From Hahella sp. HN01 (GTDB lineage: Bacteria; Pseudomonadota; Gammaproteobacteria; Pseudomonadales; Oleiphilaceae), in contig NZ_JAHMIN010000036.1 of NCBI RefSeq assembly GCF_018986435.1, positions 34,362 to 68,286 of the forward strand: a stretch of 33,925 nucleotides of DNA. Direction: 5' to 3'. Within the stretch, counting starts at the first letter, position 1. The number at the start of each line of letters is the position of its first letter. The notes under the pieces were generated by a model, which was not told where the DNA came from, did not search any database, and saw only the letters and a program-made list of their open reading frames with translations. This document shows, piece by piece, positions 1,981 to 27,370 of this stretch. The position numbers were made by a program, and so were the translations under genes.

Positions 1981-1988
1981 GTGATAGA

Positions 1989-2423: not shown

Positions 2424-2573
2424 AGGCGTAGTCGGATTCGCTAGGTTGGAGTCTGGCCCGAGCCGGGCGTCTGACGGCTGGTTGTGCGTCTAATATAGCC
2501 TGAAACGGGGGCGTAAAGAACTGTGGCCGATCTTGGCTTTGAGCGATGACGTTCTGATGACAACGGGCGCAGC

Positions 2574-3374: not shown

Positions 3375-3392
3375 GCAGCCTAAAAATGGCGC

Positions 3393-4016: not shown

Positions 4017-4347
4017 TGCGTCAACCTGCTCACGTCCGTGAGTATCACGAAGGTCTGCTGAAAATCAGGCCAGGGGAAATTGTTCGCTTACAGCTTGCGG
4101 CGCCTCATTGGCGACGGGGTGGAAGTGCTCCGCTAGGGTCGCTTTTAATTGCGCCGCTCAATAAAAGTCTATCGCAAAATTCGTAGAACGCCCGTAAAAC
4201 TTTGTGGAATGATGGGCGGTTTTTTTAGGCCATTTACAGACGTTTTCTAACTCCCTGATTGTTATTAACATGGCGATGATCATGGCATGTTAATATCCGG
4301 GTGCTGACACATGGCGCGGCCGCTCACATCCATAAAATGGATCACTC
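4017..4347. other. Divergent intergenic region between fetA and QTMAN gene
   Basis: These 331 bp hold no convincing gene. The fetA-proximal half is ordinary high-GC sequence. The half near the plus-strand gene is A/T-richer and includes a run of seven T (4220-4226) and the long inverted repeat at 4263-4295, described separately. Promoters for both divergent genes must lie here, but I could not place -35/-10 pairs with confidence. Confidence 0.6.
4263..4295. promoter_or_regulatory. 10-bp inverted repeat, candidate operator
   Basis: The arms TATTAACATG and CATGTTAATA are perfect complements separated by 13 bp, and the spacer contains an 8-bp palindrome ATGATCAT almost exactly at the centre. 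It lies 52 bp before the ATG at 4348 and about 250 bp before fetA. Such nested dyads are typical of dimeric repressor or activator sites. The cognate protein is unknown; the sequence does not look like a Fur box. Confidence 0.5.
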
Positions 4348-5409: not shown

Positions 5410-5427
5410 TGGCTCACAAGAGATTGC

Positions 5428-6045
5428 CTAAACAGCGCCTGTCTCTGCGTTGTCGAGATGAATCGCGCGGTGCGCAAGCCGGCTGACGTCCTCGCTTTGA
5501 TGGGTGACCATTAGCAGAGTTTTGCCGAATCGCTCCGCCATCGTGCGGGTCCACTCTGTCGCGAGGCGACGGGTGTCCGCATCCAGCTCTGAGAAGGGTT
5601 CGTCCAGTAGAATCAGCGGCTCTGGCCGCAGCATGGTGCGCAGCAAAGCGGCTCGCTGACGCTGTCCCCCTGAGAGGCGGCCGGGAAGTTTGTCCAGCTG
5701 GTCGGCGATTCCCAAAGCCTGGGCTTGGTTGGGGATCTCAGACTGCATCGCAACGTCCACCCCCAGTTTCAAATTCGCCATGACAGTGAGGTGTTCGAAC
5801 AGGTTGTAGTCCTGAAACAACATGGCGACTGGTCGCTGCTCCGGCGGCGTGTGGGTGAGGTCCCTGTCTTCCCACGACAGGTGTCCTGCCTCGAGCGCGA
5901 CAAAGCCGGCGATGGCCTCCAGCAACGTAGATTTCCCCACGCCGCTGACACCTTGCAGGGCGATGATTTCCCCTTGGGCGACTTGCAGATCGTAATGCAG
6001 GGTGCGGGCGCCCCGTTTAATTTGAAGTGCGCGGATTTCAAGCAT
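5428..6045 (-). CDS. thiQ: Thiamine ABC transporter ATP-binding protein ThiQ
   Basis: This 205-residue ABC ATPase is short, as ThiQ is. It has Walker A GVSGVGKST (32-40), Q-loop Gln78 in AMLFQDYNLFEHLTV, signature LSGGQRQRAALLR (124-136), Walker B LILLDEPFSELD (Asp148, Glu149) and His182. LFQDYNLFEHLTV followed by ANLKLG is characteristic of ThiQ. Its ATG overlaps the end of thiP by 8 nt, so the two are translationally coupled. It energises uptake of thiamine, thiamine phosphate and TPP through ThiP. It is last in the riboswitch-controlled operon thiB-thiP-thiQ and is convergent with the gene at 4348, with only 18 nt between stops. Confidence 0.94.
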   Translation of the reverse strand: MLEIRALQIKRGARTLHYDLQVAQGEIIALQGVSGVGKSTLLEAIAGFVALEAGHLSWEDRDLTHTPPEQRPVAMLFQDYNLFEHLTVMANLKLGVDVAMQSEIPNQAQALGIADQLDKLPGRLSGGQRQRAALLRTMLRPEPLILLDEPFSELDADTRRLATEWTRTMAERFGKTLLMVTHQSEDVSRLAHRAIHLDNAETGAV

Positions 6046-7609
6046 GACGGGGGGATTGTTTCTCCAGATAAAAAATCAGCAGGCCGCAGACGCCCAGGAA
6101 CACCATGGAGGCCAGTGAGGCTTCGTCCAGGCGATAAGTGCTGGCGTAACCATAAATCAGCCAGGGCAGGGTGACGAAGTCCTGGTTGCCGAAAATAGAG
6201 TAAATCGCCACGTCCCCCATGGCCAGCATACCGACAAAGGCGGCGGCGGTGCGAATGGCCGGCGCCATATAGCTCCACTCAATGCGTCGGCGCTCCCGGG
6301 AAGTCAGTTTCAAGGAAAGAGACAAGCGGTGGTATTGACTGTCGAAGTTCAATAGCGCGGGCTTCAGTTGCGATGCGGCGAAAGGAACGGTGATCAACCC
6401 ATTAATCGCCGCCACCAGCCAGATGCCCCAATGATCCAGGTCCAGGTGCGGCAATAGCAACACGAACAGTCCAACGGACAGCACCATGGCGGGCACCGCC
6501 AGCGAATGCGAGGTGAGCCAGTCCAGCCACAGCGCGGCGGGGGATTGTTGCATACGAGCGCGGCGATAGGGGCGCAGGGCGCTGTAGGCGAGGCTGATCG
6601 ACAACACCGTCGAAACGACGCCCAGGCCAAGTGTGATCAGTAAGGGACGGCTTAGAGAACGCCAGAATTCCATATCCACGCCGCTATGGATTACCCGCGG
6701 CGTCAGCGCCAGCAGCGGCGCCAATAAAAACAGCCAGCCGCAGGCGTAGAGCAGGCGATACGCCAACTGTTCAAGACGCGTCGCCGGCGGACGCAGTTGC
6801 GCTGGCGCAGAGGCGGGACTGAGCCAGGACACTTTGCCGCAGAACGACACCAGCAGAAACGCGGAGCCGGCGATCAACAATTGTACCCAGGCCAGCGCCA
6901 GGGCTTCAGAGATATTGAAGTCGTATTTCAACGCCTGATAAATGGCCACTTCCAGGGTGGTGGCCTTGGGGCCGCCGCCCAGCGCGAGCACTACGGCGAA
7001 GCTGTTGAAACAAATGACGAAGATAAAACCCAGCAATAGCCAGGTGGCGCTGTGCGCCGCGGCCCACTCCAGGCGCCGGAAACGCTGCGCGCGGGTGAAC
7101 TTGAGCTGGCGCGCCAGACGCCAACTGGCGTCGGGAATGGACTGCAGACGCAAATACAGGGTGCGCACCGCAAAGGGTAGATTAAGGTAGATATGCGCGA
7201 TCAGGATGCCGCTCAGGCCATACAGGTTCCAGTCGTCTCCCAATAATGGACTGAGACTGCCGGAGCGACCCAGCAGACTGATAATGCCGGTGATGACGAT
7301 CAGCGTCGGCATCACGAAACAGAGCACGCATAGACTGAGAAACGCGCGCTTGTGCGTGCTGTCCTTGAGATAACTGAGCGCCAACGCCATCGGCCAGGCC
7401 AGGACGACCGACAACGCAGCGCTCAACGTCGCCTGCAACAGAGTGAAGCGCAGGATGGCGAGAAAGTAGGGATCGCTGAAATAGCTCCAGTCGAACTCGC
7501 TGCGATTGAACCCAATCAGGCCGCCGAAGGCCAGGGCCGTTGCGGTGGCGACCAAACCCAGGGCGGGCCAGCCGGCCCATTTGCCTGAGGTGAATGCGCT
7601 CAGCTTCAT
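6038..7609 (-). CDS. thiP: Thiamine ABC transporter permease ThiP
   Basis: This 523-residue polytopic membrane protein has about 12 transmembrane segments in two BPD/MetI-like halves, the fused permease arrangement of ThiP (E. coli 536 residues). Each half carries an EAA-type coupling loop: ARQLKFTRAQRFRRLEWAA in the first and SLKLTSRERRRIEWSYMAP in the second. The conserved ThiP end region MGDVAIYSIFGNQDFVTLP is near residue 470. I chose the ATG at 7609 over the in-frame TTG at 7612; an AGG lies upstream. It is 61 nt downstream of thiB and overlaps thiQ by 8 nt. Confidence 0.94.
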   Translation of the reverse strand: MKLSAFTSGKWAGWPALGLVATATALAFGGLIGFNRSEFDWSYFSDPYFLAILRFTLLQATLSAALSVVLAWPMALALSYLKDSTHKRAFLSLCVLCFVMPTLIVITGIISLLGRSGSLSPLLGDDWNLYGLSGILIAHIYLNLPFAVRTLYLRLQSIPDASWRLARQLKFTRAQRFRRLEWAAAHSATWLLLGFIFVICFNSFAVVLALGGGPKATTLEVAIYQALKYDFNISEALALAWVQLLIAGSAFLLVSFCGKVSWLSPASAPAQLRPPATRLEQLAYRLLYACGWLFLLAPLLALTPRVIHSGVDMEFWRSLSRPLLITLGLGVVSTVLSISLAYSALRPYRRARMQQSPAALWLDWLTSHSLAVPAMVLSVGLFVLLLPHLDLDHWGIWLVAAINGLITVPFAASQLKPALLNFDSQYHRLSLSLKLTSRERRRIEWSYMAPAIRTAAAFVGMLAMGDVAIYSIFGNQDFVTLPWLIYGYASTYRLDEASLASMVFLGVCGLLIFYLEKQSPRHA

Positions 7610-7670
7610 CAAAGTACAACCTGCATGGAAAAAGCCGACCAGTTAAGACAACAAATAGAGATGGCGGCGC

Positions 7671-8687
7671 TTATTGAGCGACGGCGCTGCGCCATTCCTT
7701 GATCCATGTTTTACGGTTCGCCGCGATGTACTCCGGCGTTAACTCAATGGGCTTGGGCTGAATCAGCGTATCGAAAGCGCTGGGCAGTTTGACCCCCTTG
7801 CGGACCGGCAGCATCCAGTTGGTCACGGGGATGACTTCCTGCGCTTCCTGAGAAATCAGAAATTCAAGGAAGCGATTGGCCAACTCCTTCTTCTCGCTAT
7901 TCGCCGCAATGGCGGCGACTTCCACTTGCATCACATGGCCTTCGCTGAACAGCGCCGCCTTGTATTGCGATTTGTCCTCCGCCACCTGGTGATAGGCGGG
8001 AGACGTGCTGTAGCTGAGTACGTAATCCGCGTCGCCTTCCAGGAACATGCTGTAGGCTTCCCACCAGCCTTTGGTGACGGTGACGGTATGTTGCGCCAAC
8101 TGTTTCCAGGCGTTTTCCGCCTGATCGCCATATGCGCTCTTCATCCACATCATCATGCCCTGTCCCGGCGTGCTGGTGCGCGGGTCCTGATAAATCACCG
8201 AGGCGGATGAGTTCACCAGCTCTTGCAGAGATTGCGCCGGCTGCTTGATTTTCTGGCTGTCGTAGATGAATGAGAAATAGCCGTAATCGAAAGGTACGAA
8301 GTCTTTATCGCTCCATTTCAGCACTGGCGTCAGGGCGTCGAAGGCGACCGAGTGCGGCTGCACCAGACCTTCTTTGCGGGTTTCTTCTATCAGTCCGGTG
8401 TCCAGACCCAGCACCACATCTGCTTTGGCGTTCTTGCCTTCGATGCGCAGCCGGTTAAGAATGCTGACCCCGTCTTCCAGGGCGACGAATTTAAGATCGC
8501 ACTGACAGGCGGCTTCGAAGTTTTTTTCCAGCGCGGGACCAGGTCCCCATTCGCTGATGAAGGAGTCGTAGGTGTAGACCGTCAGCTCTTCCGCCGCGCT
8601 GGCGCTGGTGGCGAAGGTCGCGACAGAAACGGCGATAAGCGTACGGGCGACGCGAGATACGGATGCAGTGTGAAACAGGTTGTACAT
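7671..8687 (-). CDS. thiB: Thiamine-binding periplasmic protein ThiB
   Basis: This 338-residue solute-binding protein has a signal peptide ending near ATSASA (about residue 31). The mature start ELTVYTYDSFISEWGPGPALEKNFEAAC is typical of ThiB/TbpA, followed by VALEDGVSILNRLRIEGKNAKADVVLGLD and the later YLSYSTSPAYH-type pocket segment (here DYVLSYSTSPAYHQVAED). E. coli ThiB uses corresponding Trp/Tyr residues to sandwich the thiamine pyrimidine. The ribosome binding site AGAGGAG lies just upstream of the ATG. It is first gene of thiBPQ, 68 nt downstream of the TPP riboswitch. Confidence 0.95.
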   Translation of the reverse strand: MYNLFHTASVSRVARTLIAVSVATFATSASAAEELTVYTYDSFISEWGPGPALEKNFEAACQCDLKFVALEDGVSILNRLRIEGKNAKADVVLGLDTGLIEETRKEGLVQPHSVAFDALTPVLKWSDKDFVPFDYGYFSFIYDSQKIKQPAQSLQELVNSSASVIYQDPRTSTPGQGMMMWMKSAYGDQAENAWKQLAQHTVTVTKGWWEAYSMFLEGDADYVLSYSTSPAYHQVAEDKSQYKAALFSEGHVMQVEVAAIAANSEKKELANRFLEFLISQEAQEVIPVTNWMLPVRKGVKLPSAFDTLIQPKPIELTPEYIAANRKTWIKEWRSAVAQ

Positions 8688-8755
8688 GGAGGCTCCTCTA
8701 AACAGCGAGGCGCGGAAGCGGCGGCTTGATCCAGAAAGCGATTAGCCGGCCTCAT

Positions 8756-8871
8756 TTCCTACGCCAGCATTAACTGGATCAGGTTCTACGGGTACACTCT
8801 CAGCCTGACTGGCGCGCATTCATGCGCAATGGCGCGTCGAATAAACGCAGTGGAGTCAGGCGCCCCGATGA
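8756..8871 (-). promoter_or_regulatory. TPP riboswitch (THI element) upstream of thiB
   Basis: Read on the minus strand, the element contains the full set of TPP aptamer signatures in order: CGGGGCGCC; a P3 stem GCCTGACT (plus coordinates 8854-8861) pairing with AGTCAGGC (8803-8810); the conserved CTGAGAG (8797-8803); TACCC; GAACCTGATC; and the 3' segment TAATGCTGGCGTAGGAA. P3 is long, extended by roughly 40 nt of variable sequence. TPP binding should lower thiBPQ expression. In the 68 nt before the thiB start, CCTC (plus 8707-8710) can pair with GAGG of the ribosome binding site (plus 8695-8698) across an 8-nt loop. This suggests control at translation initiation rather than termination; no T-run terminator is visible. 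Confidence 0.96.
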
Positions 8872-8994
8872 GACTGCCCGGATTCTAACCAAAAGCGATG
8901 GGACAATCTACGCGGACGCAGGATATTTTGCAGTGAGGAAACTCTGTCTGCGCTGGCGTAATGCGAGTAAACCTTAACAAGGAGTCAAGACAGG

Positions 8995-9555
8995 ATGGCG
9001 TTTACAAAGATGGAAACCGAGCGTTTAACGCTGCGGGTGGTGAGTCCGGAAGACGGTCCGGCGCTAAACCAGACAATCATAGAATCTCTGGATCAGCTAC
9101 AACCCTGGCTGGACTGGATGACGCCGCCGCCGAGCGTAGAGGAGACCGCCCGCTGGTGTCGGCAGGCATACGCTCGCTATCTGCTGGAGGAAGAAGTGAA
9201 CCTGATGCTGCTGCGCAAGGAAGATGGCGCGTTGGCGGGAGTGTGTGGTTTGCGTAAGGCCAACGCCGCTTTGCGTCATCATGAGGTGGGCTATTGGGGC
9301 TCGGCGCGCCTGCAAGGCGCCGGTTATATGACGGAGGGCGTAAAGGCGTTGGCGGAGTACGCGTTGCTTGAGCTGGCCGCCAGCCGGGTTTATCTGACCA
9401 CGGACGAACGCAATCTCAGCAGTCGCAAACTGGCGGAGCGCGCAGGATTTCAGCTTGAAGGCGTGTTGCGCAATGAGCGCATGGATAACCAGGGACAGTT
9501 TCGTAACACCTGCGTGTACGCGAGAATTGCGGCGGGAAACTGGACTACCCATTAA
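8995..9555 (+). CDS. RimJ/RimL-type GNAT acetyltransferase
   Basis: This 186-residue protein has the RimJ/RimL/SpeG-like layout: ETERLTLRVVSPEDGPALNQ at the start, W-rich LQPWLDWMTPPPSVEET, then VGYWGSARLQGAGYMTEGVKALAEYAL (about 98-124) as acetyl-CoA motif A with the Q-G-x-G-[YF]-[MA] loop. The late VYLTTDERNLSSRKLAERAGFQLEGVLRNE (about 133-162) is motif B. Members acetylate ribosomal protein N-termini or small amines such as amino-sugars; the substrate here is not predictable. The AAGGAG site lies about 11 nt before the ATG. The phosphotransferase gene follows 63 nt downstream on the same strand. Confidence 0.9.
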   Translation: MAFTKMETERLTLRVVSPEDGPALNQTIIESLDQLQPWLDWMTPPPSVEETARWCRQAYARYLLEEEVNLMLLRKEDGALAGVCGLRKANAALRHHEVGYWGSARLQGAGYMTEGVKALAEYALLELAASRVYLTTDERNLSSRKLAERAGFQLEGVLRNERMDNQGQFRNTCVYARIAAGNWTTH

Positions 9556-9618
9556 CCTGTCGCCCCCATTAACTGTCACAGCCATAAACTTTTCACACCC
9601 TTAAATAATGAGCATGGC

Positions 9619-10449
9619 ATGAGCGATATCCTACAGTCAGAAGAACCCACACAACGCCCGTTTGTTGCGGAGCGGCTGCGGGCGGCTGACGCCTTTCTGG
9701 GGACGGGGATGGACTGGCGACTCATGCTGGCGTCAGGTCACAGCAATATGTTGTTTCGAGCGCAGGGTCCGCAAGGCGATTTGGTGCTGCGTATCAACGC
9801 CAGCTCGTTACGCGCCTTTGGCGTTGACCGGCGACTTGAGGCGGATGTGCTGCGACTGATCCAGGGCGCTCGCTGGGCGCCGCGAGTGCTCTGTAACGCG
9901 TGGCGGGAAGGTTGGCTGTTGATGACGCATCATGGCGCCAGCCTGACCGAAGCCGGTGATCAGGACGTCGCCTCGCAACAGACCGTCGAGCAGTTACTGG
10001 CGTTCGTCGCAGATCTGCAGCGCGTCACGGAAGGGCCCGCATTTGATTACCAGGCTTTGATGGCGCTCTATCGACGTCGTCTTCAGGAGCGCGCCGCTGT
10101 GGCCGCGCATCAGGCTTGTCTGCAGCAACTGGAAGATGCGTTTTCCGCTATTCCCAACGACGCAATGGCGCTGACCCACCATGATCTGCACTCAGGCAAT
10201 CTGTGTCTGGATCAAGGACAGCTGATCGTGCTGGACTGGGAATATGCCGGCTTGGGCTGGCCCTGGCTGGACATGGCCTCGCTCCTGCAACACCACGATC
10301 TTGAAGCGGATGATTTATACGCCTTGCCCGTTTGCGCCAACTTGAGCGCAACAGAAATCCAACAGCGACTGCATCTTGCCGCGCATATCAATCAACTCCT
10401 GGAACAACTTTGGTTTGCAGTGAGAGAAGAGCAAACCGGCCAGGCTTAG
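9619..10449 (+). CDS. Aminoglycoside/choline-kinase-fold phosphotransferase, possible thiamine kinase
   Basis: This 276-residue APH-fold kinase has an N-lobe with ASGHSNMLFRA (phosphate loop, 38-48) and LVLRIN (nucleotide lysine replaced by Arg58). The catalytic loop is HHDLHSGN (Asp189, Asn194) and the metal site is LDWEYAGLGWPWLDMASLL (Asp206). The LIDWEYAG-type metal motif and length resemble E. coli ThiK (thiamine kinase, 274 residues) and choline/ethanolamine kinases. Lying close to thiBPQ, thiamine phosphorylation is a reasonable but untested guess. The gene is not under the riboswitch, since it is on the other strand. A sugar, choline or antibiotic substrate remains possible. Confidence 0.72.
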   Translation: MSDILQSEEPTQRPFVAERLRAADAFLGTGMDWRLMLASGHSNMLFRAQGPQGDLVLRINASSLRAFGVDRRLEADVLRLIQGARWAPRVLCNAWREGWLLMTHHGASLTEAGDQDVASQQTVEQLLAFVADLQRVTEGPAFDYQALMALYRRRLQERAAVAAHQACLQQLEDAFSAIPNDAMALTHHDLHSGNLCLDQGQLIVLDWEYAGLGWPWLDMASLLQHHDLEADDLYALPVCANLSATEIQQRLHLAAHINQLLEQLWFAVREEQTGQA

Positions 10450-10530
10450 ACGTTACCTTGACCCACAGACGTGAGCATGCCCAAATCAGAGGCGTGTTCA
10501 AAAACAAGTATTTCAGGGAGCGAGGGTAAG

Positions 10531-18062: not shown

Positions 18063-18944
18063 ATGACGAATGAGCAGTTACGCGCTTTTGTTGGCGTGGT
18101 GGAGCATGGCAGTTTCCGGGCTGCTGCGGCGGCTCTGTTTAAAACCCAGTCTACGGTCAGTGCGGCGGTGGCGGCGCTGGAGCAGGAGTTTGATTTACAG
18201 TTATTCAGTCGGGAAACCTACCGACCGACGCTGACTATTGAAGGCAAGGCGTTGTTCAGGGAAGCCAAGGCGCTACTGTCCAAGGCCCATGATCTGGAGA
18301 TGCTGGGGCATCGTCTGGCCCAGGGCAAGGCGCCGGAGCTGTCCATTTCCCTGAGCGCCATGTGCGCGCATTTGCCGGGATTGGACACCTTGAAAGCGTT
18401 CGCCAAAAAGCGACCCGAGATGCGTCTGCATTTACATACGGAGCATTTGTCCGGGGTGCTGGAGCAACTGCTGGTTGAGAAAGCGGAAGTGGCCATCGGT
18501 CCCCAGGTTGGGCTGGATGATCGCTATGAATTTACCGAGGTGGCGAAAGTCACCCAGGTTACGGTTGCGGCGCCGGGGTTCGTCGAAGCAGGCGCGGACG
18601 GCGTGGTGCGCCATGCGCAGTTACGTAATCTGCCGCATATTCTGATTGCCGACAGCGGCTCGCTGGCGCCCTTTGATCACGTCAATGTGATTCCCGGCGG
18701 CCATCGCTGGTATGTGAATGACTTTCTGATGAAGAAGGGGCTGCTTCTCTCCGGAATGGGCTGGGCGCGGATTCCGCTGCATATGGTGGACGCCGAACTG
18801 GAGCGAGAAGAACTGAGGTTCCTGCAGGTGGAGAACTTTCCTTCGCGCAGTCTGGTCCCCATCTATCTCATACGGTTGCGCAATCAATTGTTATCGCCGC
18901 TGGCGCAGGAATTCTGGGATGAAATGTTGGGCGCTTCGCTTTGA
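18063..18944 (+). CDS. LysR-type transcriptional regulator
   Basis: This 293-residue protein has the LysR N-terminal winged helix-turn-helix (residues 1-60: LRAFVGVVEHGSFRAAAAALFKTQSTVSAAVAALEQEFDLQLFSRET). The effector domain follows from about 90 (LSISLSAMCAHLPGLDTLKAFAKKRPEMRLHLHTEHLSGVLEQLLVEKAEVAIGP). The strong GGGGAGG site precedes the ATG. It is divergent from the TauE/SafE permease, so that gene is the likely target, with autoregulation from the shared region. The inducer is unknown. Confidence 0.94.
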   Translation: MTNEQLRAFVGVVEHGSFRAAAAALFKTQSTVSAAVAALEQEFDLQLFSRETYRPTLTIEGKALFREAKALLSKAHDLEMLGHRLAQGKAPELSISLSAMCAHLPGLDTLKAFAKKRPEMRLHLHTEHLSGVLEQLLVEKAEVAIGPQVGLDDRYEFTEVAKVTQVTVAAPGFVEAGADGVVRHAQLRNLPHILIADSGSLAPFDHVNVIPGGHRWYVNDFLMKKGLLLSGMGWARIPLHMVDAELEREELRFLQVENFPSRSLVPIYLIRLRNQLLSPLAQEFWDEMLGASL

Positions 18945-18948
18945 CATT

Positions 18949-18987
18949 GCCCTCACTCTGTCCAATAGTTATCAATTAACTGAGGGC
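18949..18987. repeat. Nested inverted repeats after the LysR gene
   Basis: GCCCTCA (18949-18955) and TGAGGGC (18981-18987) are perfect complements and enclose a second small stem AGTTA / TAACT (18967-18981). TCCAATA (18961-18967), in the loop, is also complementary to TATTGGA (18994-19000) beyond the hairpin, and GGGCGCTTCG occurs twice (18929-18938, 18984-18993). It may be the LysR terminator or a leader element of the regulator gene at 19075. There is no T-run. Confidence 0.4.
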
Positions 18988-19074
18988 GCTTCGTATTGGA
19001 TGGCGCTTTGGGGGCTGCGACGATAACAATAAGGTTCCATCCGTGTTTTTCTGCTTGGGATAAGCAAAAACGCC

Positions 19075-19698
19075 ATGAAAGATACGTGCGTATATATCAT
19101 CGAAGATGACCAGATGCAGGCTGATCTGCTGTCGGCTATTCTGGAATCCTATGGTTACCAGTCCAAAGCCTACGGCAATCCCAAAGCGTTTTTATCCGAG
19201 TTCAGCAATGATCACCACTGCGTGATTCTCTCCGACATCATGATGCCGGACATGACAGGCCTGGACTTGCTGAACCGAATGTCCGAAACCGGCTACCTGC
19301 CGCCGTTGATATTAATGACGGCGTATTCCACGGTGCCGGTGGTGAAAGAAGCGCTGCAGGGCGGCGCCTTCGATTTTCTGCTCAAACCTATCAGCATCAC
19401 CGACGTAGGCCCCCTGCTGGAAAAGGCGGTGGCCCATGAAAAACTGCACCGCGAACGTTATATGAAACGTCTCGACATCCAGCGCTCTATTTCGCAACTG
19501 ACCGCCCGTGAGAAGCAGATTTACGACCTGCTGTTGCAGGGGCTCAGCACCAAGGAGATGGAGGCTAAACTGTTCATCAGCCCCCGCACCATCGAGACGC
19601 ACTGCCGCAATGTACTGGCCAAATTCGACGTCTCCTCTATCAAGGATCTGCTGGTCAAAGTGTTGCCCTTGGCGGCGGAGGAGAGCAGCGTCAACTGA
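19075..19698 (+). CDS. FixJ/NarL-type response regulator
   Basis: This 207-residue protein has a receiver domain at 1-120 with acidic Glu10/Asp11/Asp12, phosphoacceptor Asp54 (ILSDIMMPDMTGLDLL), Thr82 (MTAYSTVP) and Lys104 (LLKPI). A LuxR-type helix-turn-helix is at 140-197 (LTAREKQIYDLLLQGLSTKEMEAKLFISPRTIETHCRNVLAKF). It should be a DNA-binding activator controlled by phosphorylation. No histidine kinase is adjacent, so it is an orphan here. It has no good ribosome binding site before the ATG. The gene downstream starts 186 bp later on the same strand and might be its target. Confidence 0.93.
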   Translation: MKDTCVYIIEDDQMQADLLSAILESYGYQSKAYGNPKAFLSEFSNDHHCVILSDIMMPDMTGLDLLNRMSETGYLPPLILMTAYSTVPVVKEALQGGAFDFLLKPISITDVGPLLEKAVAHEKLHRERYMKRLDIQRSISQLTAREKQIYDLLLQGLSTKEMEAKLFISPRTIETHCRNVLAKFDVSSIKDLLVKVLPLAAEESSVN

Positions 19699-19884
19699 TC
19701 GAGTTCACTCACGAACCTGTTGATTCGCTGATTTAATGCTTCCTCCATAATGTCGCGCCTTCAGCGCATTTTTTATCACTTCTCCGTAGTACTACTGAGA
19801 ACGGCTCTGATATTTCAGTAAGCGTACGAATCCTCTTGCACGGACAAACTGATTAATCTGTGCACATAACGTTCAGGAGGATTT

Positions 19885-20715
19885 ATGTCAGCAAACCGAG
19901 TAGTTTCCCTGGTCGCCTCTAATGCGCCACAAGACGAGCTGGAACGCAGCAGGCAAAAGAACGCCGAGTTGGAGCAAAGTCTGGCCAGTGTGAACCAAAT
20001 GGCGATGGGGCTGTTACGCTCCAACAGCTTCCTGGGCGGTATGATTGAGTTTTTCGAGCGCTGCTCGGAAGTTCGCGAGCCTTCTGAAATTGGTCTGGCG
20101 ATGGAGAATGCGCTGAGCGGCTATCAAGTGCCTTACGTATTCATCCTCAACCTGCCGGAGCAACATTATGTGTTCGGCGGCAAAAACTATGTCACCAATT
20201 TGCAGTTTGACGTGATCACCACGTTGACGTTGCAACGTGAACGCATTGTTAATTTCGATCAGTATTCCCTGATCAATTTCCCGTATTTCTCTATTTGTCT
20301 GACCATGACGGCGGAGGAGAAAGAGGCCCATCTGGATAACCTTACCCGGCTGGCGCAAGTGGCGAATTTCGTCCTTTCCAATCTGGTGCGGGAGTCTCAG
20401 GAGAAGATGGTGCGCCAAGGCATCATGCAGCGGGCGGTGCGGCGTACAGAGGCGTTGCTGGACAACATCATGAAGATGGTGCTGGATTGCGGCGCGCACT
20501 CCATTCAAAGTTTTTCCGATCTGAAGTGGACTATCCAAAGCTCCATCATGGGGCTGGACCTGGACATCGAGTCGGAGCAAAGCATTTTCAATATCGTTGA
20601 CCAACTGATGGAGCAGTTCGAGCACCAGCAGGCCTCCACGAGGATTATCGAGAACTATATCCTTTCGGTGAAGGAGAGTTTGGCGCAGCTCAGCGACAGT
20701 CAAACTGGAGAATAG
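19885..20715 (+). CDS. Unknown cytosolic protein with coiled coil and GAF-like middle
   Basis: This 276-residue protein is not confidently assigned to a family. Residues about 15-50 form a heptad-like coiled coil (DELERSRQKNAELEQSLASVNQM). The middle (about 55-175) has alternating strands and helices ending in FSICLTMTAEEKEAHLDNLTRLAQVANFVLSNLV, which resembles the end of a GAF domain. The C-terminal third (180-270) is helical and coiled-coil-prone. No enzyme motif, signal peptide or membrane segment is seen. AGGAGG precedes the ATG. The next gene starts 2 nt after its stop, so the two are one operon. A sensory or scaffold role is inferred from the setting only. Confidence 0.75.
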   Translation: MSANRVVSLVASNAPQDELERSRQKNAELEQSLASVNQMAMGLLRSNSFLGGMIEFFERCSEVREPSEIGLAMENALSGYQVPYVFILNLPEQHYVFGGKNYVTNLQFDVITTLTLQRERIVNFDQYSLINFPYFSICLTMTAEEKEAHLDNLTRLAQVANFVLSNLVRESQEKMVRQGIMQRAVRRTEALLDNIMKMVLDCGAHSIQSFSDLKWTIQSSIMGLDLDIESEQSIFNIVDQLMEQFEHQQASTRIIENYILSVKESLAQLSDSQTGE

Positions 20716-20717
20716 AA

Positions 20718-21113
20718 ATGAACGCAGAGAAGATTATGGCTTTTGATGACGGGAACTTCGCTGCGGATGTCGTCAGAAACAAGTTTCTGGAACATCTCGC
20801 CGATAGCATGTCACTAATCAGTTCCAGCGGCTCCCGACTGCATTGCGCCAGTCTGATGGAGACCTCACGCATGATTGCGATGATGCGGGATATCGCCAGC
20901 GGCATTGTCGCCACGGCGGAAAGCCAGGGGTTGCCCAGTATCGCGGAATGCGGTCTGGAATTGCAGCGCTGGTGTCGGCTGGCGCTGCATAACGAAGATC
21001 TGGAGGTCATGCGTTGTTTGATCCCTCAGATCAAGCAGGCGGGAAACGAGCTGGCCCGTGAAGCGGATCGCTTGTGCGTAAACCAGAAATGGAAGTCCAG
21101 CCGTAGAGATTGA
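20718..21113 (+). CDS. Small helical protein, possible degenerate Hpt-like domain
   Basis: This 131-residue, largely helical cytosolic protein follows the previous gene by 2 nt, with GGAGAA just inside that gene's end. The pattern of helices, and a second half reading IAECGLELQRWCRLALHNEDLEVMRCLIPQIKQAG, recall four-helix histidine phosphotransfer domains. Where an Hpt would have H-x-x-K-G, this has D-I-A-S-G (Asp58 to Gly62), so phosphotransfer is not expected. It also has four cysteines. This resemblance is by eye only and could be wrong; the safe call is hypothetical protein co-expressed with the gene at 19885. Confidence 0.72.
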   Translation: MNAEKIMAFDDGNFAADVVRNKFLEHLADSMSLISSSGSRLHCASLMETSRMIAMMRDIASGIVATAESQGLPSIAECGLELQRWCRLALHNEDLEVMRCLIPQIKQAGNELAREADRLCVNQKWKSSRRD

Positions 21114-21120
21114 TCCCTCC

Positions 21121-21142
21121 GTCGCAGCGTTCGCGCTGCGGC
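21121..21142. terminator. UUCG-capped hairpin after the two-gene unit
   Basis: CGCAGCG-TTCG-CGCTGCG (21123-21140) is a perfect 7-bp stem with a UUCG tetraloop, and is extended by T-G and G-C pairs to 9 bp. It starts 7 nt after the stop at 21113. C(UUCG)G loops are exceptionally stable. There is no T-run, so it may stabilise the 3' end or assist termination before the kinase gene. Confidence 0.55.
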
Positions 21143-21259
21143 TATTCCCTGTCTATACTCCCTAGCATTCATTTCTATTTCTTTGTCCAGCCAGTTATTT
21201 TCCAGGCGCCGGACACGAACCTGAAGCAGTAGTTCAGCAGTTTGCGACTCGGGGAGTCT

Positions 21260-23977
21260 ATGAAGGTTTGTCCCATTTGCAGTACGGATTTTCCCCAGGG
21301 CGATTACTGTCCCGCCGATGGGGCCACATTGGTGGATAAGCAGCGCCGCGATCCGCTTATCGGCAAAATGCTGAAGGACATGTATCGCATCGAATCCCGC
21401 CTGGCGGAAGGCGGTATGAGTCTGGTCTATGTGGCGCGCCAGTTATCCTTGGACCGTCTGGTGGTGGTCAAACTGCTGCGGGCGGGCATGGACGATCATG
21501 ACTTTATCCAGCTGTTTTTCCGCGAAGCGCGCATCGCCAGCCAATTGAACCACCCCAACGTCATGCATGTGATCGACTTCGGCAACACCGACGACGGTAT
21601 GATGTATCTGGTTGTGGAGTATCTGCGCGGAGAGAACCTGTCCGATCTGGTGGAAAAACGCAGCGGGCTGCCGCTGGAAAACGTGGTGTGGCTGCTGGAG
21701 CAGATCGGCGCCGGGTTGCAGGCCGCGCATCAGATGAACATCGTGCACCGGGATTTGAAGCCCGGCAACATCATTGTCGCGCGGGTGTCCGGCGACCATT
21801 CCGTCGCCAAGCTGCTGGATTTCGGCATCAGCAAGCCGCTGGGAGAAGGGGATCTTAAATACACCCGTTTGGGCATGGTGATGGGCACACCGGGTTATCT
21901 GGCGCCGGAGCAGATTGAAGGCGCGCGCAACATCGACAAACGCGCTGATATCTACGCCCTGGGCGCGATTCTTTATTACTGCATCACTGGCGAACGCCCT
22001 TATACCGGCGAAAGCCCCCAGGACATCATGAACCGGCAATGCGCCGGACCGCCGCCGGCGCTGCGGGAAAACCGCTTGACCGACGCTCGCAATAAAGCTC
22101 TGGAGCCGGTGATTCTGAAGGCCATGGCGCTAAGCCCGGACGGTCGCTATCCAGACGCCCAGGCGATGGTGCGGGACATCCAGAACCGCGCTCACGCCGC
22201 CATTGCGGAATACTCCAAGGCCATGGAGATGGCGCCGCCGAATCCAGACGTCTATCAATTTATTTTCTATGGCGAAATTCGCGGCGACGTAGAGTTGCAG
22301 GACACCCAGGAAAAACTGAAAGCGGCGCTGGGATTGAGCGACGCCGCCTGCGCCCGCTTGTTCAGCGGTAAGCGGGTGGTGGTGAAGAAGAATCTCAGTC
22401 TGGGCAAGGCGAAAAAGTACGACGAGGCGTTTCAGGCCGCTGGCGCTTTAGGGCAGATCGAGGAAATGGATACCGCCACCCGCATTGATCCGGCGCACAG
22501 CATGGATGAGCGCTCCATGAGCCAACCCATTGTGGTGGCCGCCTCCACGTTGGCGGAGCCCATGCATCTGGGTTCGCAACCGCCGCCGTTCGGCGTACAG
22601 GGGTATACGCATCCCGTTGCGCCGACGCTGGATGATGAGACCACTACCGTGGTGGCCCCGGGAACGCTTCCCACGATGGGGCCTGGCATGACGACGGCTG
22701 CTGGCCAGAGCGCCCGACGTCGCATGCCGCTTTGGCTGGGGCTGACTGCGCTGGTCTTGATCCTGGTTGGCGTGGGTTACGCGGTTCCCGTGGTGCGTTA
22801 CAGCGTGGCGGACGGATATGCGGAGTTAACCGGCTGGCAGGCGCCGCGCGGCGTCAGTGAGAACCGGGTGGCGCTGGGAATGAGCGCGGCCTTTAGCGGC
22901 GGCGCCAGAGAGCTGGGGCGCGCCATGCAGTTGGGCGTTGACGTGCGCATTCGCGAAATTAACGAACAGGGCGGCATCCACGGACGCTATATTGAACTGC
23001 GCGCCCTGGACGACGGATACGAACCCGCGGCGGCGCACCAGAACGTCGAAAAATTTATGCAGCCGGACGGCGTATTCGCCATGTTGGGCAATGTGGGAAC
23101 GCCCACGGCGGAAACGATATTGCCGGTGGCCCTGAAGGATAGAACCATCGTGTTCGGCACCTTCTCCGGCGCAGCTCTGCTGCGGAAAAGTCCGCCTGAG
23201 CGATACGTGTTCAACTATCGCGCCAGTTACGAAGATGAAACCAACGCCCTGATTCGCTACTTCATCGAGGAACAGGACGTCGACCCCAGAATGATCGCGG
23301 TGTTCTATCAGGACGACGGCTACGGCCAGGACGGTTTGAAAGGGGTGGAGGATGCGCTGTCGGATTACGGCGTGCGTCCCCATGAAATCGCCAAATTCAG
23401 CTACCAGCGCAATACGGCGCAGATTGAAGGCGCGGCCCAGGGCATGTTAGGCCGCCTGAGCGAGATACAGGCGGTGGTGGCCATCAGCACCTACACCGCC
23501 AGCGCGCGTTTGACCAAACGTCTGCGTCAGGCCGGATTCACCGGGCCTTTCGCCAATGTCTCCTTTGTCGGGGCGCGAGCGCTGGCGGAGCAGTTCAAAG
23601 AGTTAGGCGTGGAATACGGCGAGGGCGTGGTGGTGTCTCAGGTAGTGCCGCCGTTTGATTCCTACGCCACTGGCGTGCTGCGCTACCGGGAGGCCTTGAG
23701 CCGTTTCTATCCCAATGAGCAGCCGGACTTTATTTCTCTGGAAGGCTACATTGTGGCGACCTTGTTTTTCCATGCGTTGGAGCGGGCGGGTCGGCACTTT
23801 GATACCGAATCACTGGTGGACACGCTGGAGTCGTTTGACGGCGTGGATTTGGGCATCGGGGAGACGATCACTTTCCGCGCCTCGGATCACCAGGGCAGTC
23901 ATCGGGTATGGGGAACCCAGTTGAATCGCGATGGAGCGTTTGAGGCGGTCAGGCTCAGTAAGAAAGAAACGCTGTAG
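21260..23977 (+). CDS. Transmembrane Ser/Thr protein kinase with periplasmic-binding-protein sensor domain
   Basis: This 905-residue protein starts at ATG 21260 (GGGGAG 3 nt upstream); an in-frame TTG at 21242 is less likely. The domains, in order, are a three-Cys zinc-ribbon-like start (Cys4, Cys7, Cys17, then PADG) and a Hanks-type kinase at about 42-315. Kinase motifs are LAEGGMSLVY, Lys71, Glu89, HRDLKPGN with Asp165/Asn170, DFG at 187-189 and APEQ at 215-218. A small alpha/beta domain follows at about 334-402 (FYGEIRGD...LFSGKRVVVKKNL), then a Pro/Thr-rich linker and one membrane helix (about 489-511). A full type-I periplasmic binding (LivJ/amide receptor-like) domain covers about 535-900 (ALGMSAAFSGGARELGRAM, INEQGGIHGRYIEL, VFYQDDGYGQDG). 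Kinase inside and ligand domain in the periplasm predict direct ligand-controlled phosphorylation. All key kinase residues are present. Confidence 0.93.
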   Translation: MKVCPICSTDFPQGDYCPADGATLVDKQRRDPLIGKMLKDMYRIESRLAEGGMSLVYVARQLSLDRLVVVKLLRAGMDDHDFIQLFFREARIASQLNHPNVMHVIDFGNTDDGMMYLVVEYLRGENLSDLVEKRSGLPLENVVWLLEQIGAGLQAAHQMNIVHRDLKPGNIIVARVSGDHSVAKLLDFGISKPLGEGDLKYTRLGMVMGTPGYLAPEQIEGARNIDKRADIYALGAILYYCITGERPYTGESPQDIMNRQCAGPPPALRENRLTDARNKALEPVILKAMALSPDGRYPDAQAMVRDIQNRAHAAIAEYSKAMEMAPPNPDVYQFIFYGEIRGDVELQDTQEKLKAALGLSDAACARLFSGKRVVVKKNLSLGKAKKYDEAFQAAGALGQIEEMDTATRIDPAHSMDERSMSQPIVVAASTLAEPMHLGSQPPPFGVQGYTHPVAPTLDDETTTVVAPGTLPTMGPGMTTAAGQSARRRMPLWLGLTALVLILVGVGYAVPVVRYSVADGYAELTGWQAPRGVSENRVALGMSAAFSGGARELGRAMQLGVDVRIREINEQGGIHGRYIELRALDDGYEPAAAHQNVEKFMQPDGVFAMLGNVGTPTAETILPVALKDRTIVFGTFSGAALLRKSPPERYVFNYRASYEDETNALIRYFIEEQDVDPRMIAVFYQDDGYGQDGLKGVEDALSDYGVRPHEIAKFSYQRNTAQIEGAAQGMLGRLSEIQAVVAISTYTASARLTKRLRQAGFTGPFANVSFVGARALAEQFKELGVEYGEGVVVSQVVPPFDSYATGVLRYREALSRFYPNEQPDFISLEGYIVATLFFHALERAGRHFDTESLVDTLESFDGVDLGIGETITFRASDHQGSHRVWGTQLNRDGAFEAVRLSKKETL

Positions 23978-24078
23978 CCGGGCCATTCCGACATCATCTC
24001 TGCGGCGTCCGATGCGGCTGGATGAAGGATGCGCCAGACCGGGCCGCGCGCTGTGGACTCAGCATGAGGCGAAGCGAA

Positions 24079-25020
24079 ATGAGCGGCGTGACAGCGAAAT
24101 CTCTACTGGTCGCCATGGGACTCTATTGCAGTCTGTGCGCGACCTCCGTAACGGCGGTGGAAGTTCAGCAAAACCAGTTGTACGAAGGCGGAACCCTGAT
24201 TGAGTCCGGCTCACTGGGCCTGTCGTTCAAGGTTCCTGACGGCTGGCAGGGCGCCTGGCCGGCGGGATCGGAACTTTTTGTACTGGAATCCCAGGCGCTG
24301 AAAGCCAATATCTTCGTGTACATCGACCAGTCCGGCGAGCAGGCGCTGATGCAACAGATGGCGCAACCGGTGCCGTTGGACGCTTCCGTCGTCCTGTATC
24401 CGAAAAGCGCGCCGCAAAAACGCAATGGTCGTCTGACGGCGGATTACAGCATCGGCAATATGCCTAACATGGAAGGCCGCATCAGCGCCGTCACCGGCAA
24501 AGGCTCTACCTCTGTAGCGTTGATCGCGGTCGCGGATCAGAGCACCGCCGCGCAGGTCTGGAAAGTGGCGGAGACCGTGGCCTCCTCGGTTAAATTCTCC
24601 GCGCCGAAACCCTTGGCGCAAGGCGGGGGTGACGGCGGCTGGAGCACCTACATGCGGGGACGTCATATCGTGCGCTATTACACCGGCTCCGGTTATCACG
24701 AAGAAGAGCACATCTGGTTATGCAGCAATGGCGAGTTCTATCGCTCCGGTAACAGCGGGGGCTATGGCGGCGGCGCCAGCGGCGCCACAGGCAGTCAGGG
24801 TTCCGGCAGATGGGAGGCACAGGGCTCAATGAACGCTCAGGGCCGATTAATTCTGCAATACGGCCCCGGCTACAGCATGCAGGGCAGCACGCCGGGCTTT
24901 GACTGGAATGAATCCGGCCCAGGCGGAGAACGCGTCACTTTTACGCTGGCGCTGGCTAATAACAAGCTGTATCTGGATGGAACCCAGTGGCTGCGGGACG
25001 GCAATAATCGCTGTCAGTAA
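24079..25020 (+). CDS. Exported protein of unknown function next to the receptor kinase
   Basis: This protein has 313 residues from ATG 24079, chosen because the signal peptide (1-26, ending SVTA) begins there; GAGG lies about 9 nt upstream. In-frame ATGs at 24022 and 24064 would put 19 or 5 extra polar residues before it. The mature part has a PsbP/lipoprotein-like N-terminal region (GLSFKVPDGWQGAWP..., about 45-175) that looks beta-rich. A Gly/Ser-rich C-terminal domain follows from about 188 (WSTYMRGRHIVRYYTGSGYHEEEHIWLCSNGEFYRSG...), with two cysteines near residues 215 and 311. No family is named with confidence. It follows the kinase by 101 nt on the same strand and is probably expressed with it, perhaps as a periplasmic partner. 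Confidence 0.75.
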   Translation: MSGVTAKSLLVAMGLYCSLCATSVTAVEVQQNQLYEGGTLIESGSLGLSFKVPDGWQGAWPAGSELFVLESQALKANIFVYIDQSGEQALMQQMAQPVPLDASVVLYPKSAPQKRNGRLTADYSIGNMPNMEGRISAVTGKGSTSVALIAVADQSTAAQVWKVAETVASSVKFSAPKPLAQGGGDGGWSTYMRGRHIVRYYTGSGYHEEEHIWLCSNGEFYRSGNSGGYGGGASGATGSQGSGRWEAQGSMNAQGRLILQYGPGYSMQGSTPGFDWNESGPGGERVTFTLALANNKLYLDGTQWLRDGNNRCQ

Positions 25021-25080
25021 CAGGTTCTCAGTAATCGCAAGAAAGAGTAGGGAGAGGAGAAAAGGGGAATAGAGAACAAG

Positions 25081-25103
25081 AGGGAGCGACATGGTCGCTC
25101 CCT
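25081..25103. terminator. 10-bp hairpin between convergent genes
   Basis: AGGGAGCGAC and GTCGCTCCCT are perfect complements around a 3-nt ATG loop. It sits between the stop of the exported-protein gene (25020) and the tdh stop (25122). It is a likely bidirectional terminator. No T-run is present on either side. Confidence 0.65.
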
Positions 25104-25121
25104 GGGCCAAGACGGGAAAAC

Positions 25122-26165
25122 TCAGTCTGACCAGTTCAGAATGACTTTACCGGATTGGCCGCTGCGCATGGCGTCAAAGCCCTGTTCGTAGTCGGCGTAT
25201 TCGAAACGGTGGGTGATGATCGGTTCAATGTCCAATCCCGCCTCCAGCATCGCCAGCATCTTGTACCAGGTCTCGAACATTTCGCGGCCGTAGATGCCTT
25301 TGACCTGCAGCGCCTTGAGCACGATCTTGCTGAGATCCAGCTCCGCCGGCTTGGACGGCAGACCCAGCAGGGAAATACGACCGCCCATCATCATCACATC
25401 CAGCATATCGTTGAGGGCGGAAGGAATGCCGCTCATTTCCAGGCCCACATCGAAGCCTTCCTTCATTTTTAGTCGTCCCATGACGTCGCGCAGAGACTCC
25501 CGTTGCGCGTTCACCGGCTCCACATCCGCGACTTTGGCCGCCAGCTCCAGGCGGTAGTCATTGATGTCAGTGATCACCACTTTGTGGGCGCCTGCGAATC
25601 TCGCTACGGCGGCGGCCATGATGCCGATAGGTCCGGCGCCGGTGATGAGCACGTCCTCGCCCACCAGATCATAGGCCAGGGCCGCATGCACGGCGTTGCC
25701 CAGCGGGTCCAGTATCGCGCCAAGCTCCAGACTCACTGCGTCCGGCAGGGGCACGACGTTGAACGCCGGCAGGCAAAGGTACTCGGCGAAAGCGCCGGGC
25801 AGGTTAACGCCGATGCCTTTGGTGTCCGGCGCCAGATGGAAACGTCCTGCGCGGGCGTTGCGGCTGAGCATCCCCACCACGTGACCTTCTCCTGACACGC
25901 GCTGTCCGATATGCAGGCCGTCCACGTGACTGCCGAGTTCCACAATCTCACCGCTGTATTCATGGCCGGTGGTCAAAGGGACGGGGACGTTGTTGCGCGC
26001 CCAGTCGTCCCAGTTGTAAATGTGGATGTCGGTGCCGCAGATCGCGGTGCGCTTGATCTTGATGATCACATCGTTGGGCCCGCATTCGGGAACCGGCTGC
26101 TCTTGCAGCCAGAGTCCGGGAGCAGATTGCGCTTTGACCAACGCCTTCATGGTTGACGACTGCAT
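25122..26165 (-). CDS. tdh: L-threonine 3-dehydrogenase
   Basis: This 347-residue zinc-type medium-chain dehydrogenase oxidises L-threonine to 2-amino-3-ketobutyrate with NAD. It follows E. coli Tdh closely ([88 protein letters not shown]). Catalytic-zinc ligands Cys43, His68 and Glu69 are present. Strikingly, the structural-zinc loop has lost all four cysteines: E. coli Cys93/96/99/107 correspond to Gly98, Ser101, Ala104 and Ala112 here ([20 protein letters not shown]). The loop length is unchanged, so this is substitution, not deletion. GGAGG at the kbl end serves as ribosome binding site; the ATG is 2 nt after the kbl stop. Confidence 0.95.
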
Positions 26166-26167
26166 GT

Positions 26168-27370
26168 TCAGCCTCCAATAACCCCAAGTTGTTGACCGAC
26201 GCGGGTAAAGGCGGCGACCGCCTGCTCCAGCTGTTCGCGGGTCAGCGCCGCGTTCATCTGGGTGCGGATGCGCGCCTGACCTTGCGGCACCACCGGATAG
26301 AAGAATCCAGTAACGTATACCCCTTGCTCGTACAACGCTTTCGCGAAGTCCTGCGCCAGCTTGGCGTCTCCCAGCATGACCGGGATGATGGCGTGTTCGC
26401 CGGGCAGCAGTTTAAAGCCAGCTTCGCTCAGGCTGTTACGGAAAAACGCAGCGTGTTCGCGCAGGTTGTCGCGCAGATGGTCGCCGGCGATGGAAATTTC
26501 CAGGGCTTTCAGGCTGCCTGCGACGACAGGCGGGGGAAGGGAGTTGGAGAATAGATAGGGGCGGGCGCGTTGGCGGAGCAGTTCGATAATATCGCGGCTC
26601 GCTGCAATAAAGCCGCCGGCTGCGCCGCCGAGGGCTTTACCCAGCGTGCCGGTAATAATGTCGACTTCCACGCCGTTGTAGGCGGCGCTGCCTTTGCCCT
26701 GGGGGCCGATGACGCCGGTGGCGTGACAGTCGTCCACCATCACCAGGGCGTCGTATTTACGCGCAATGGCGACAATATCCTTCAGCGGCGCGATATAGCC
26801 GTCCATGGAGAAGACGCCGTCGGTGGCCACCAGAATATTGCGGGCTCCGTCGGCGCGAGCCTGCTTCAGCTGGGCTTCCAGATCATTCAGATCACGGTTG
26901 CCGAAACGGTAGCGTTTGGCTTTGCACAGACGGATGCCGTCGATGATGGAGGCATGGTTCAGGGAATCGGAGACGATAGCGTCTTCGGCGCTCAGTAACG
27001 GCTCGAACAGGCCGCCATTGGCGTCGAAGCAGGCGGCGAACAGAATGCTGTCCTCCATTCCCAGGAACTCTGCGATCTTGTGCTCCAGCTCTTTGTGCAG
27101 CGTTTGCGTGCCGCAGATAAAGCGTACGGAAGCCATGCCAAAACCGTATTTGTCGAGCGCTTCATGCGCCGCTGCGATGACTTCCGGGTTGTCCGCCAAG
27201 CCCAGATAATTATTCGCGCAAAGATTGAGAATTTGTTTATCGCCAGCTTCTCCGGCGAGTTTGACGGCGGCCGCCTGAGGAGTGTCTATCACACGCTCCT
27301 TTTTAAACAGGCCGGCTTTTTCAATCTCATCAAGGGTTTGCTGTAATTGTTGTTGGAAAGTCTGGTTCAT
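26168..27370 (-). CDS. kbl: Glycine C-acetyltransferase (2-amino-3-ketobutyrate CoA ligase)
   Basis: This 400-residue PLP enzyme of the alpha-oxoamine synthase group is nearly the length of E. coli Kbl (398). It cleaves 2-amino-3-ketobutyrate with CoA to glycine and acetyl-CoA, preventing loss of the unstable Tdh product. Markers are [11 protein letters not shown] (49-59), the [16 protein letters not shown] segment (81-96), [12 protein letters not shown] (211-222) and the PLP lysine Lys245 in [13 protein letters not shown]. kbl precedes tdh with a 2-nt gap, the standard order. AAGGGA is the ribosome binding site. Two 18-bp dyads cover its probable promoter. Confidence 0.96.

Follow-up and report, generated by a model that had tools for sequence, protein, structure and literature searches.

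An extracellular ligand is known for only a small number of bacterial Ser/Thr kinases. A type I binding protein can feed a signalling receptor, as TorT does for TorS. More generally, activation by solute-binding proteins is described for chemoreceptors, sensor kinases, c-di-GMP enzymes and Ser/Thr kinases (PMC9602780), and domains of the periplasmic binding-protein (PBP) clan are prevalent in GGDEF/EAL proteins (PMC8846402); the notion of binding proteins serving receptors with several kinds of output, either in trans or fused to them, is already in print. The accessible portions of these two papers contain no mention of the PF13458 subfamily considered here on Ser/Thr kinases or on DUF4388. 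A protein combining a Ser/Thr kinase with a type I binding-protein (ANF_receptor) domain in Nostoc sp. PCC 7120 was reported by Krupa and Srinivasan in 2005, with branched-chain amino acids suggested as its ligand, together with a kinase of Streptomyces coelicolor joined to a bacterial extracellular solute-binding protein (PMC1262709). A 2026 table of proteins from actinomycete BGCs also contains SBP_bac_3 with Pkinase (PMC13293324). In the PknG-GlnX-GlnH system, an extracytoplasmic amino-acid-binding protein likewise controls a Ser/Thr kinase, but three separate proteins are involved, the kinase is cytoplasmic and sensing occurs in trans (PMC9769921, PMC11032199). A 2024 survey of Planctomycetota kinases names, in its accessible part, WD40, TPR, sulfatase-modifying, DUF1080 and tubulin-like domains (PMC11032199). 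The available text of PMC2877116 contains neither "periplasmic" nor "solute", and that of PMC6213207 neither "periplasmic" nor "solute binding". Within the literature covered, which includes few subscription journals and in part only portions of papers, such fusions were found only in PMC1262709 and in one table row of PMC13293324, and nothing was found on the PF13458 subfamily described below.

The window analysed here, a stretch of 33,925 nucleotides from Hahella sp. HN01, encodes on its forward strand (21260–23977) a membrane Ser/Thr kinase of 905 amino acids with a binding-protein ectodomain, as delimited by its open reading frame, Pfam matches and a check of the start. The ATG at 21260 is preceded by a Shine-Dalgarno-like GGGGAG at 21251–21256; an alternative in-frame TTG lies upstream at 21242 and would give 911 residues. 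By Pfam, a kinase and a PBP/ANF domain stand in one chain, which is the architecture described in 2005. Thus, the layout has been in print since then, and the novelty lies in the type of binding protein. The likeness to the Nostoc protein, which comes from another phylum, is one of described architecture and not of sequence, and the accessible part of that report does not mention a juxtamembrane domain like the one described below (PMC1262709). The Streptomyces protein follows the same logic of a kinase joined to a solute-binding domain, whereas its type of domain is the Glu/Gln-type SBP_bac_3 and that of Hahella is PF13458. Kinase and ectodomain share one frame in all seven Hahella genomes examined, the source genome included, and the combination recurs across phyla; the joining is therefore not a matter of chance, and the product of this reading frame is a real receptor kinase.

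The kinase domain is of the Hanks type (residues 38–310; 21371–22189, forward strand). It matches Pkinase (PF00069) at residues 42–262 with an E-value of 4.9e-42 and 144.6 bits against a curated cut-off of 31.7, and the top PDB matches are entries named PknB, covering residues 38–310. Among 12 aligned sequences including that of the window, Lys71, Glu89, the HRDLKP-x-N and DFG motifs and the P and E of APE are invariant, as are Thr202 and Thr210 of the activation loop, while the A of APE is replaced by Ser in one. The nucleotide loop reads A-x-G-x-x-S instead of the canonical G-x-G-x-x-G, so that two of the three glycines are missing; its central GG is invariant in the same 12 sequences. The Hanks kinase that the initial annotation had called intact is so as far as motifs can tell. 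In its PknB-like kinase domain and single-pass receptor layout, the protein resembles the PASTA kinases (PknB/Stk/PrkC), but its ectodomain is a binding protein: Pfam finds no PASTA match in the 905 residues, and the PASTA kinase model NF033483 reaches only 268.1 bits against a cut-off of 450, over residues 34–317. The whole genome (7.13 Mb) contains 15 kinase-domain matches.

Two features flanking the kinase domain were absent from the initial annotation. At the N-terminus, residues 4–24 (21269–21331, forward strand) form the cysteine motif CPIC-x9-CPAD, which looks zinc-ribbon-like by eye and may bind zinc; a similar motif occurs in five of the 34 fusions found in named genomes (see below). 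Between the kinase and the membrane helix, residues from about 331 to 403 (22250–22468, forward strand), delimited by alignments, a model and Foldseek, constitute a juxtamembrane domain without a Pfam match at an E-value of 0.1. A model from 18 aligned sequences (pLDDT 84.0) predicts a beta-alpha-alpha-beta-alpha-beta topology, for which Foldseek places ribosomal protein L7, by its C-terminal domain, first among PDB entries (E-value 1.6e-3; TM 0.57/0.67), followed by further L7/L12 entries and ClpS. As no match reaches an E-value of 0.001, the predicted fold is said here to resemble the L7/L12 C-terminal domain, and kinship is not claimed. Of the 34 fusions, 17 have a detected copy of this domain, and each of these bears a gammaproteobacterial record title; one fusion from within the genus Hahella (genome G003) lacks it.

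By hydropathy, the chain contains one hydrophobic helix, at residues 494–512 (22739–22795, forward strand) and immediately preceded by RRR, in agreement with the single central membrane helix noticed initially. Behind it follows the ectodomain (residues 537–892; 22868–23935, forward strand), which matches Peripla_BP_6 (PF13458) with an E-value of 9.6e-56 and 190.3 bits against a cut-off of 31.7. The match is nearly full (profile positions 2–342 of 343), while that to ANF_receptor, at 27.7 bits, only narrowly exceeds its cut-off of 25.4. An AlphaFold model from an alignment of 54 sequences (pLDDT 93.6, pTM 0.92) shows a two-lobed, complete fold. Foldseek ranks first 4kv7 (TM 0.86/0.91), a possible Leu/Ile/Val-binding protein of Rhodopirellula baltica, which is also far ahead of the rest when the ectodomain family profile is compared with the PDB (1.6e-134). 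Remoter Foldseek matches bear titles that name complexes with leucine, valine, aromatic acids, an amide or urea, and the fold by itself thus names no ligand; the family makes an amino acid, an amide or a peptide a plausible candidate. The receptor-kinase anatomy initially proposed was borne out: the domain search suggested with it returned both PF00069 and PF13458, with ANF_receptor just over its threshold, and Pfam, the helix and the fold model together place a complete binding-protein fold after the membrane helix of a kinase whose motifs are in order.

Is this ectodomain still in use? Among 53 relatives, 95 columns are near-invariant, and the window ectodomain retains 94 of them, a count biased toward the window copy, as the relatives were chosen by similarity to a profile led by it. 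By the same measure, 84–93 columns are retained by four other fusions of the genus and family (L055, L050, L052 and L053), 81–86 by three free binding proteins associated with receptors, 67–68 by four paralogues, and 42–46 by two permease-linked proteins. The motifs GNVGTPTA, FSGA and NYRASY, which are expected to lie at the cleft in this family, rank among the best conserved columns. A constitutive kinase carrying a vestigial ectodomain could be imagined from the altered glycine loop and from a paralogue in the same genome that is down to 68 of the 95 columns; given the 94 columns retained in the window copy and a complete fold predicted with high confidence, we regard it as very improbable.

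How widespread is the fusion? Named species genomes were scanned with two peptide patterns, which gave 542 relatives, and the analysis covered the 80 that most resemble the window. Of these 80, 34 combine a kinase, a hydrophobic helix and the ectodomain in a single frame. They belong to Gammaproteobacteria (Hahella, Teredinibacter, Aliikangiella, Ketobacter, Marinifaba and MAGs), Acidobacteriota, Planctomycetota (including Zavarzinella formosa), Lentisphaerota and Myxococcota (a Myxococcaceae MAG). Two loci, L195 and L196, share one kinase under two phyla and come from similarly named co-assemblies, so that one of the phylum labels is probably a binning error. Counted by record titles, the cis use on Ser/Thr kinases extends to at least five phyla. 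HRD-x-KP-x-N is present in 33 of the 34 fusions, and the string DFG in all of them, although in the exception, L192, the search for it extended along the entire protein; the catalytic lysine was recognised by a narrow pattern in only 20. Pfam confirmed a kinase with Peripla_BP_6 in all eight fusions tested. The other 46 of the best 80 are non-kinase loci, chiefly Bradyrhizobium proteins with an N-terminal extension and anchored proteins from Myxococcota and Deltaproteobacteria; in three of three tested, Pfam found DUF4388 with Peripla_BP_6, L209 falling slightly below the DUF4388 cut-off. With at most two candidates per genome scored, and fusion judged by frame length and aligned part, no fusion was found at an E-value of 1e-60 or below in a class sample (369 genomes) and a phylum sample (398 genomes) beyond the source genome, which both include. 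The architecture thus recurs among named genomes and yet seems rare, which is what a count across genomes, proposed in the initial annotation, has yielded. Within a set of 58 relatives, it is present in all seven genomes of the genus and, among the matches listed, in only one (G015) of 30 other genomes of the family. Viral contigs gave no match to the patterns, and none of 72,556 plasmid records contains a place covering 80% of the protein.

The history of the fusion was approached with two trees, both of them quick. The first contains 96 ectodomains, with some of the thinning done by hand (48 of 80 and 48 of 72 were retained). All 32 kinase-linked ectodomains in it fall into one well-supported group together with 7 linked to DUF4388 and 14 extended or other ones; this group adjoins a group of free proteins, 16 of 20 of which have signalling neighbours. 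A second tree comprises 69 kinase domains, including 32 of 34 non-fusion kinase loci from the source genome and relatives of its order. In it, 22 gammaproteobacterial fused kinases cluster with six others (Acidobacteriota and L195/L196), and the remaining nine (Planctomycetota, Lentisphaerota, Myxococcota and one other) lie apart, beside other kinases. The label "kinase" needs two changes on the ectodomain tree, and the 37 fused kinases need four on the kinase tree, where changes counted on an unrooted tree do not separate gain from loss. A single origin of the fusion nearly fits the former but not the latter and was rejected. Taken together, the two trees suggest that one anchored ectodomain lineage has been coupled to kinases more than once.

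What do the free relatives of the ectodomain do? Their genomic company was surveyed in 53 contexts, consisting of all hits at an E-value of 1e-60 or below in the class and phylum samples outside the source genome and two from the relatives set. By local profiles, which for the outputs and the TorS-like region were built partly from these loci, a signalling gene lies within 500 bp in 33 of the 53 contexts, several of them cut by contig ends, as against 8 of 117 control reading frames from the same loci that are 300 amino acids or longer and lie at a distance of 3 kb or more. By a tally of genus codes, the 33 are spread over 20 of 31 genera. Among 20 hand-picked neighbour proteins, Pfam found a signalling output domain in all but L103, which has sensor domains only. 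The 19 comprise seven chemoreceptors, five GGDEF proteins, of which one also has EAL, two hybrid histidine kinases, CheA, a response regulator and three CHASE2-Ser/Thr kinases. In L089–L092, which share one genus code, the free binding-protein gene adjoins a gene for a CHASE2-Ser/Thr kinase (four of four by local profile, three by Pfam). As outputs possibly served in trans one may list chemoreceptors, diguanylate cyclases, the GGDEF-EAL protein, histidine kinases and clusters with CHASE2 kinases. The other 20 of the 53 have no signalling gene within 500 bp, including the most window-like ones, L098, L099 and L109–L111.

In 12 of 13 receptors with different outputs, the periplasmic regions match one another by BLAST, and the thirteenth, L088, matches TorS_sensor (1.7e-10). 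As with TorT and TorS, free relatives of the Hahella ectodomain adjoin receptors with related periplasmic regions, the difference being that the Hahella binding protein is fused to its output enzyme. TorT docks to TorS. The ectodomain might accordingly dock another periplasmic protein, the kinase then sensing a protein partner instead of a small molecule: since related periplasmic regions recur in receptors encoded next to many of the free relatives, the surface of the family may suit docking, and one of the 13 receptor regions has a strong TorS_sensor match (3.2e-11). However, for all 34 fusions the local profile shows no TorS-like gene within 1.5 kb, and conservation is concentrated among others in the three motifs presumed to line the cleft, leaving docking as an unlikely explanation.

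A third possibility is that the ectodomain is a tethered substrate-binding protein of ABC transport, the kinase tuning the cognate transporter. Many PF13458 proteins do serve transport, the source genome has 11 BPD_transp_2 matches, and permease-like reading frames lie within 1.5 kb of two of the 46 non-fusion loci (L221 and L241). But a Liv-type permease is found within 5 kb in none of the 53 free-relative contexts, and the same profile does detect permeases beside two distant members, L171 and L172. Around the gene itself, no permease is present among the scanned genes at 18063–26165, and the one ABC permease found in the window (6038–7612) is of a different type and lies some 14 kb off. Moreover, the ectodomain is neither free nor lipid-anchored, but stands behind a kinase and an internal membrane helix, unlike a substrate-binding protein of ABC transport. 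We hold this explanation to be improbable, more so than docking. Transport is thus only one setting for such domains, which were initially said normally to serve transporters or separate sensors: permease-like reading frames lie near two non-fusion loci, whereas the close free relatives keep company with signalling genes in 33 of 53 cases and with Liv-type permeases in none.

The same company is not shared by the proteins nearest to the fusions. By local profiles, none of the 46 non-fusion loci among the best 80 has a signalling gene within 1.5 kb, and only two of the 34 fusions have a signalling reading frame there (a response regulator at L188, a histidine-kinase-like one at L207). Signalling company thus marks the free sister group and not the anchored group, for which the fused kinase or DUF4388 is itself the tie to signalling. 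Proteins of the free sister group probably serve chemoreceptors, diguanylate cyclases and histidine kinases in trans, as their partners in the periplasm. Whether all of these make up a distinct family of signalling binding proteins, which would serve several outputs in trans, act in cis on Ser/Thr kinases and DUF4388 and have been coupled to kinases repeatedly, with the Hahella protein as its receptor-kinase form, is a question that we answer with a cautious, slight preference for yes, lowered because the non-fusion relatives nearest the fusions lack signalling neighbours.

For the Hahella protein itself, we consider it likely that it is a single-pass receptor Ser/Thr kinase with a PF13458 Venus-flytrap sensor in cis, controlled by a ligand. 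From its anatomy we infer a topology with the C-terminal Venus-flytrap half in the periplasm and the kinase, the cysteine motif and the L7/L12-like domain in the cytoplasm. Most likely a small molecule would close the two lobes of the ectodomain; the closed ectodomains, probably dimeric, would shift the single membrane helices so that two kinase domains could meet and phosphorylate each other, by analogy with PknB-type kinases. The sensor would thus act in cis, versus in trans for the free sister group. Since it is separately foldable, conserved across phyla and kin to free partners of chemoreceptors and diguanylate cyclases, one ligand screen could inform several signalling systems, and the protein could serve to test cleanly, in a Gram-negative bacterium, whether Ser/Thr phosphorylation is ligand-gated.

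The surroundings of the gene vary. A FixJ-type regulator, an exported protein and the two genes between them adjoin it in the near-identical genomes L054, L055 and L056, but none of these four stands beside the 64%-identical orthologues L050 and L051. The earlier idea that they belong to the same circuit is thus left without support and was dropped. No gene family is common to the surroundings of the 34 fusions across many genera; the largest neighbour clusters comprise five loci each and come from the closely related records L176–L180. The source genome also encodes a paralogue of the same architecture, 52% identical, which follows a valine-catabolism cluster with genes for methylmalonate-semialdehyde dehydrogenase and 3-hydroxyisobutyrate dehydrogenase. 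No ligand was transferred from this context, because many of the family-invariant ectodomain residues are changed in the paralogue. Type VI secretion sheath genes lie within 5 kb of four of the 34 fusions, two of them from Hahella, and Hcp adjoins the paralogue; in the remaining loci searched, it was seen near a single free binding protein (L108). Type VI secretion as a target of the kinase is a lead only.

The genome of Hahella sp. HN01 contains a second kinase-ectodomain gene, a paralogue of the window kinase, which lies with its surroundings at positions 1930-10505 of locus L046 (G000:C53). A valine-catabolism cluster, comprising genes for methylmalonate-semialdehyde dehydrogenase, acyl-CoA dehydrogenase, enoyl-CoA hydratase, a member of the 3-hydroxyisobutyryl-CoA hydrolase family and 3-hydroxyisobutyrate dehydrogenase, is followed after about 320 bp by the paralogue, and the same arrangement is found in L047, L048 and L049. 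An Hcp gene lies downstream of the paralogue, and 27 of the 95 family-invariant residues are changed in its ectodomain. In the window, genes for L-threonine dehydrogenase and glycine C-acetyltransferase (25122-27370, strand opposite to the kinase gene) converge on the kinase and exported-protein genes.

Some free-standing or more distant relatives of the ectodomain adjoin signalling genes. In L089, L090, L091 and L092, all of a single genus code, the free binding-protein gene adjoins a gene for a CHASE2-Ser/Thr kinase, and in L090 and L091 it is flanked on the other side by a chemoreceptor gene. A more distant binding protein of the group adjoins chemoreceptor and response-regulator genes in L166-L170 (the Hahella genome and four others).

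Among the best 80 of 542 named-genome relatives, the same ectodomain as in the kinase fusions follows DUF4388 and a hydrophobic helix in L202, L209 and L214 and, judged by eye, in L239, L240, L246 and L247; the records of these DUF4388-ectodomain proteins are of Acidobacteria and Myxococcota/Deltaproteobacteria. L195 and L196 encode the same kinase, one in a Chloroflexi MAG and the other in a Planctomycetota MAG; the scaffolds of the two MAGs bear similar names, and the placement under two phyla is probably a binning error. A separate 395-aa protein adjoining a fusion (L185:2210-3397), for which a Pfam search at E 0.001 returned no match, begins, by eye, like the juxtamembrane domain. Type VI secretion sheath genes lie within 5 kb of kinase-ectodomain fusions in L173, L174, L187 and L188; upstream in L188 there are, in addition, genes for VgrG and a sigma-54 activator.
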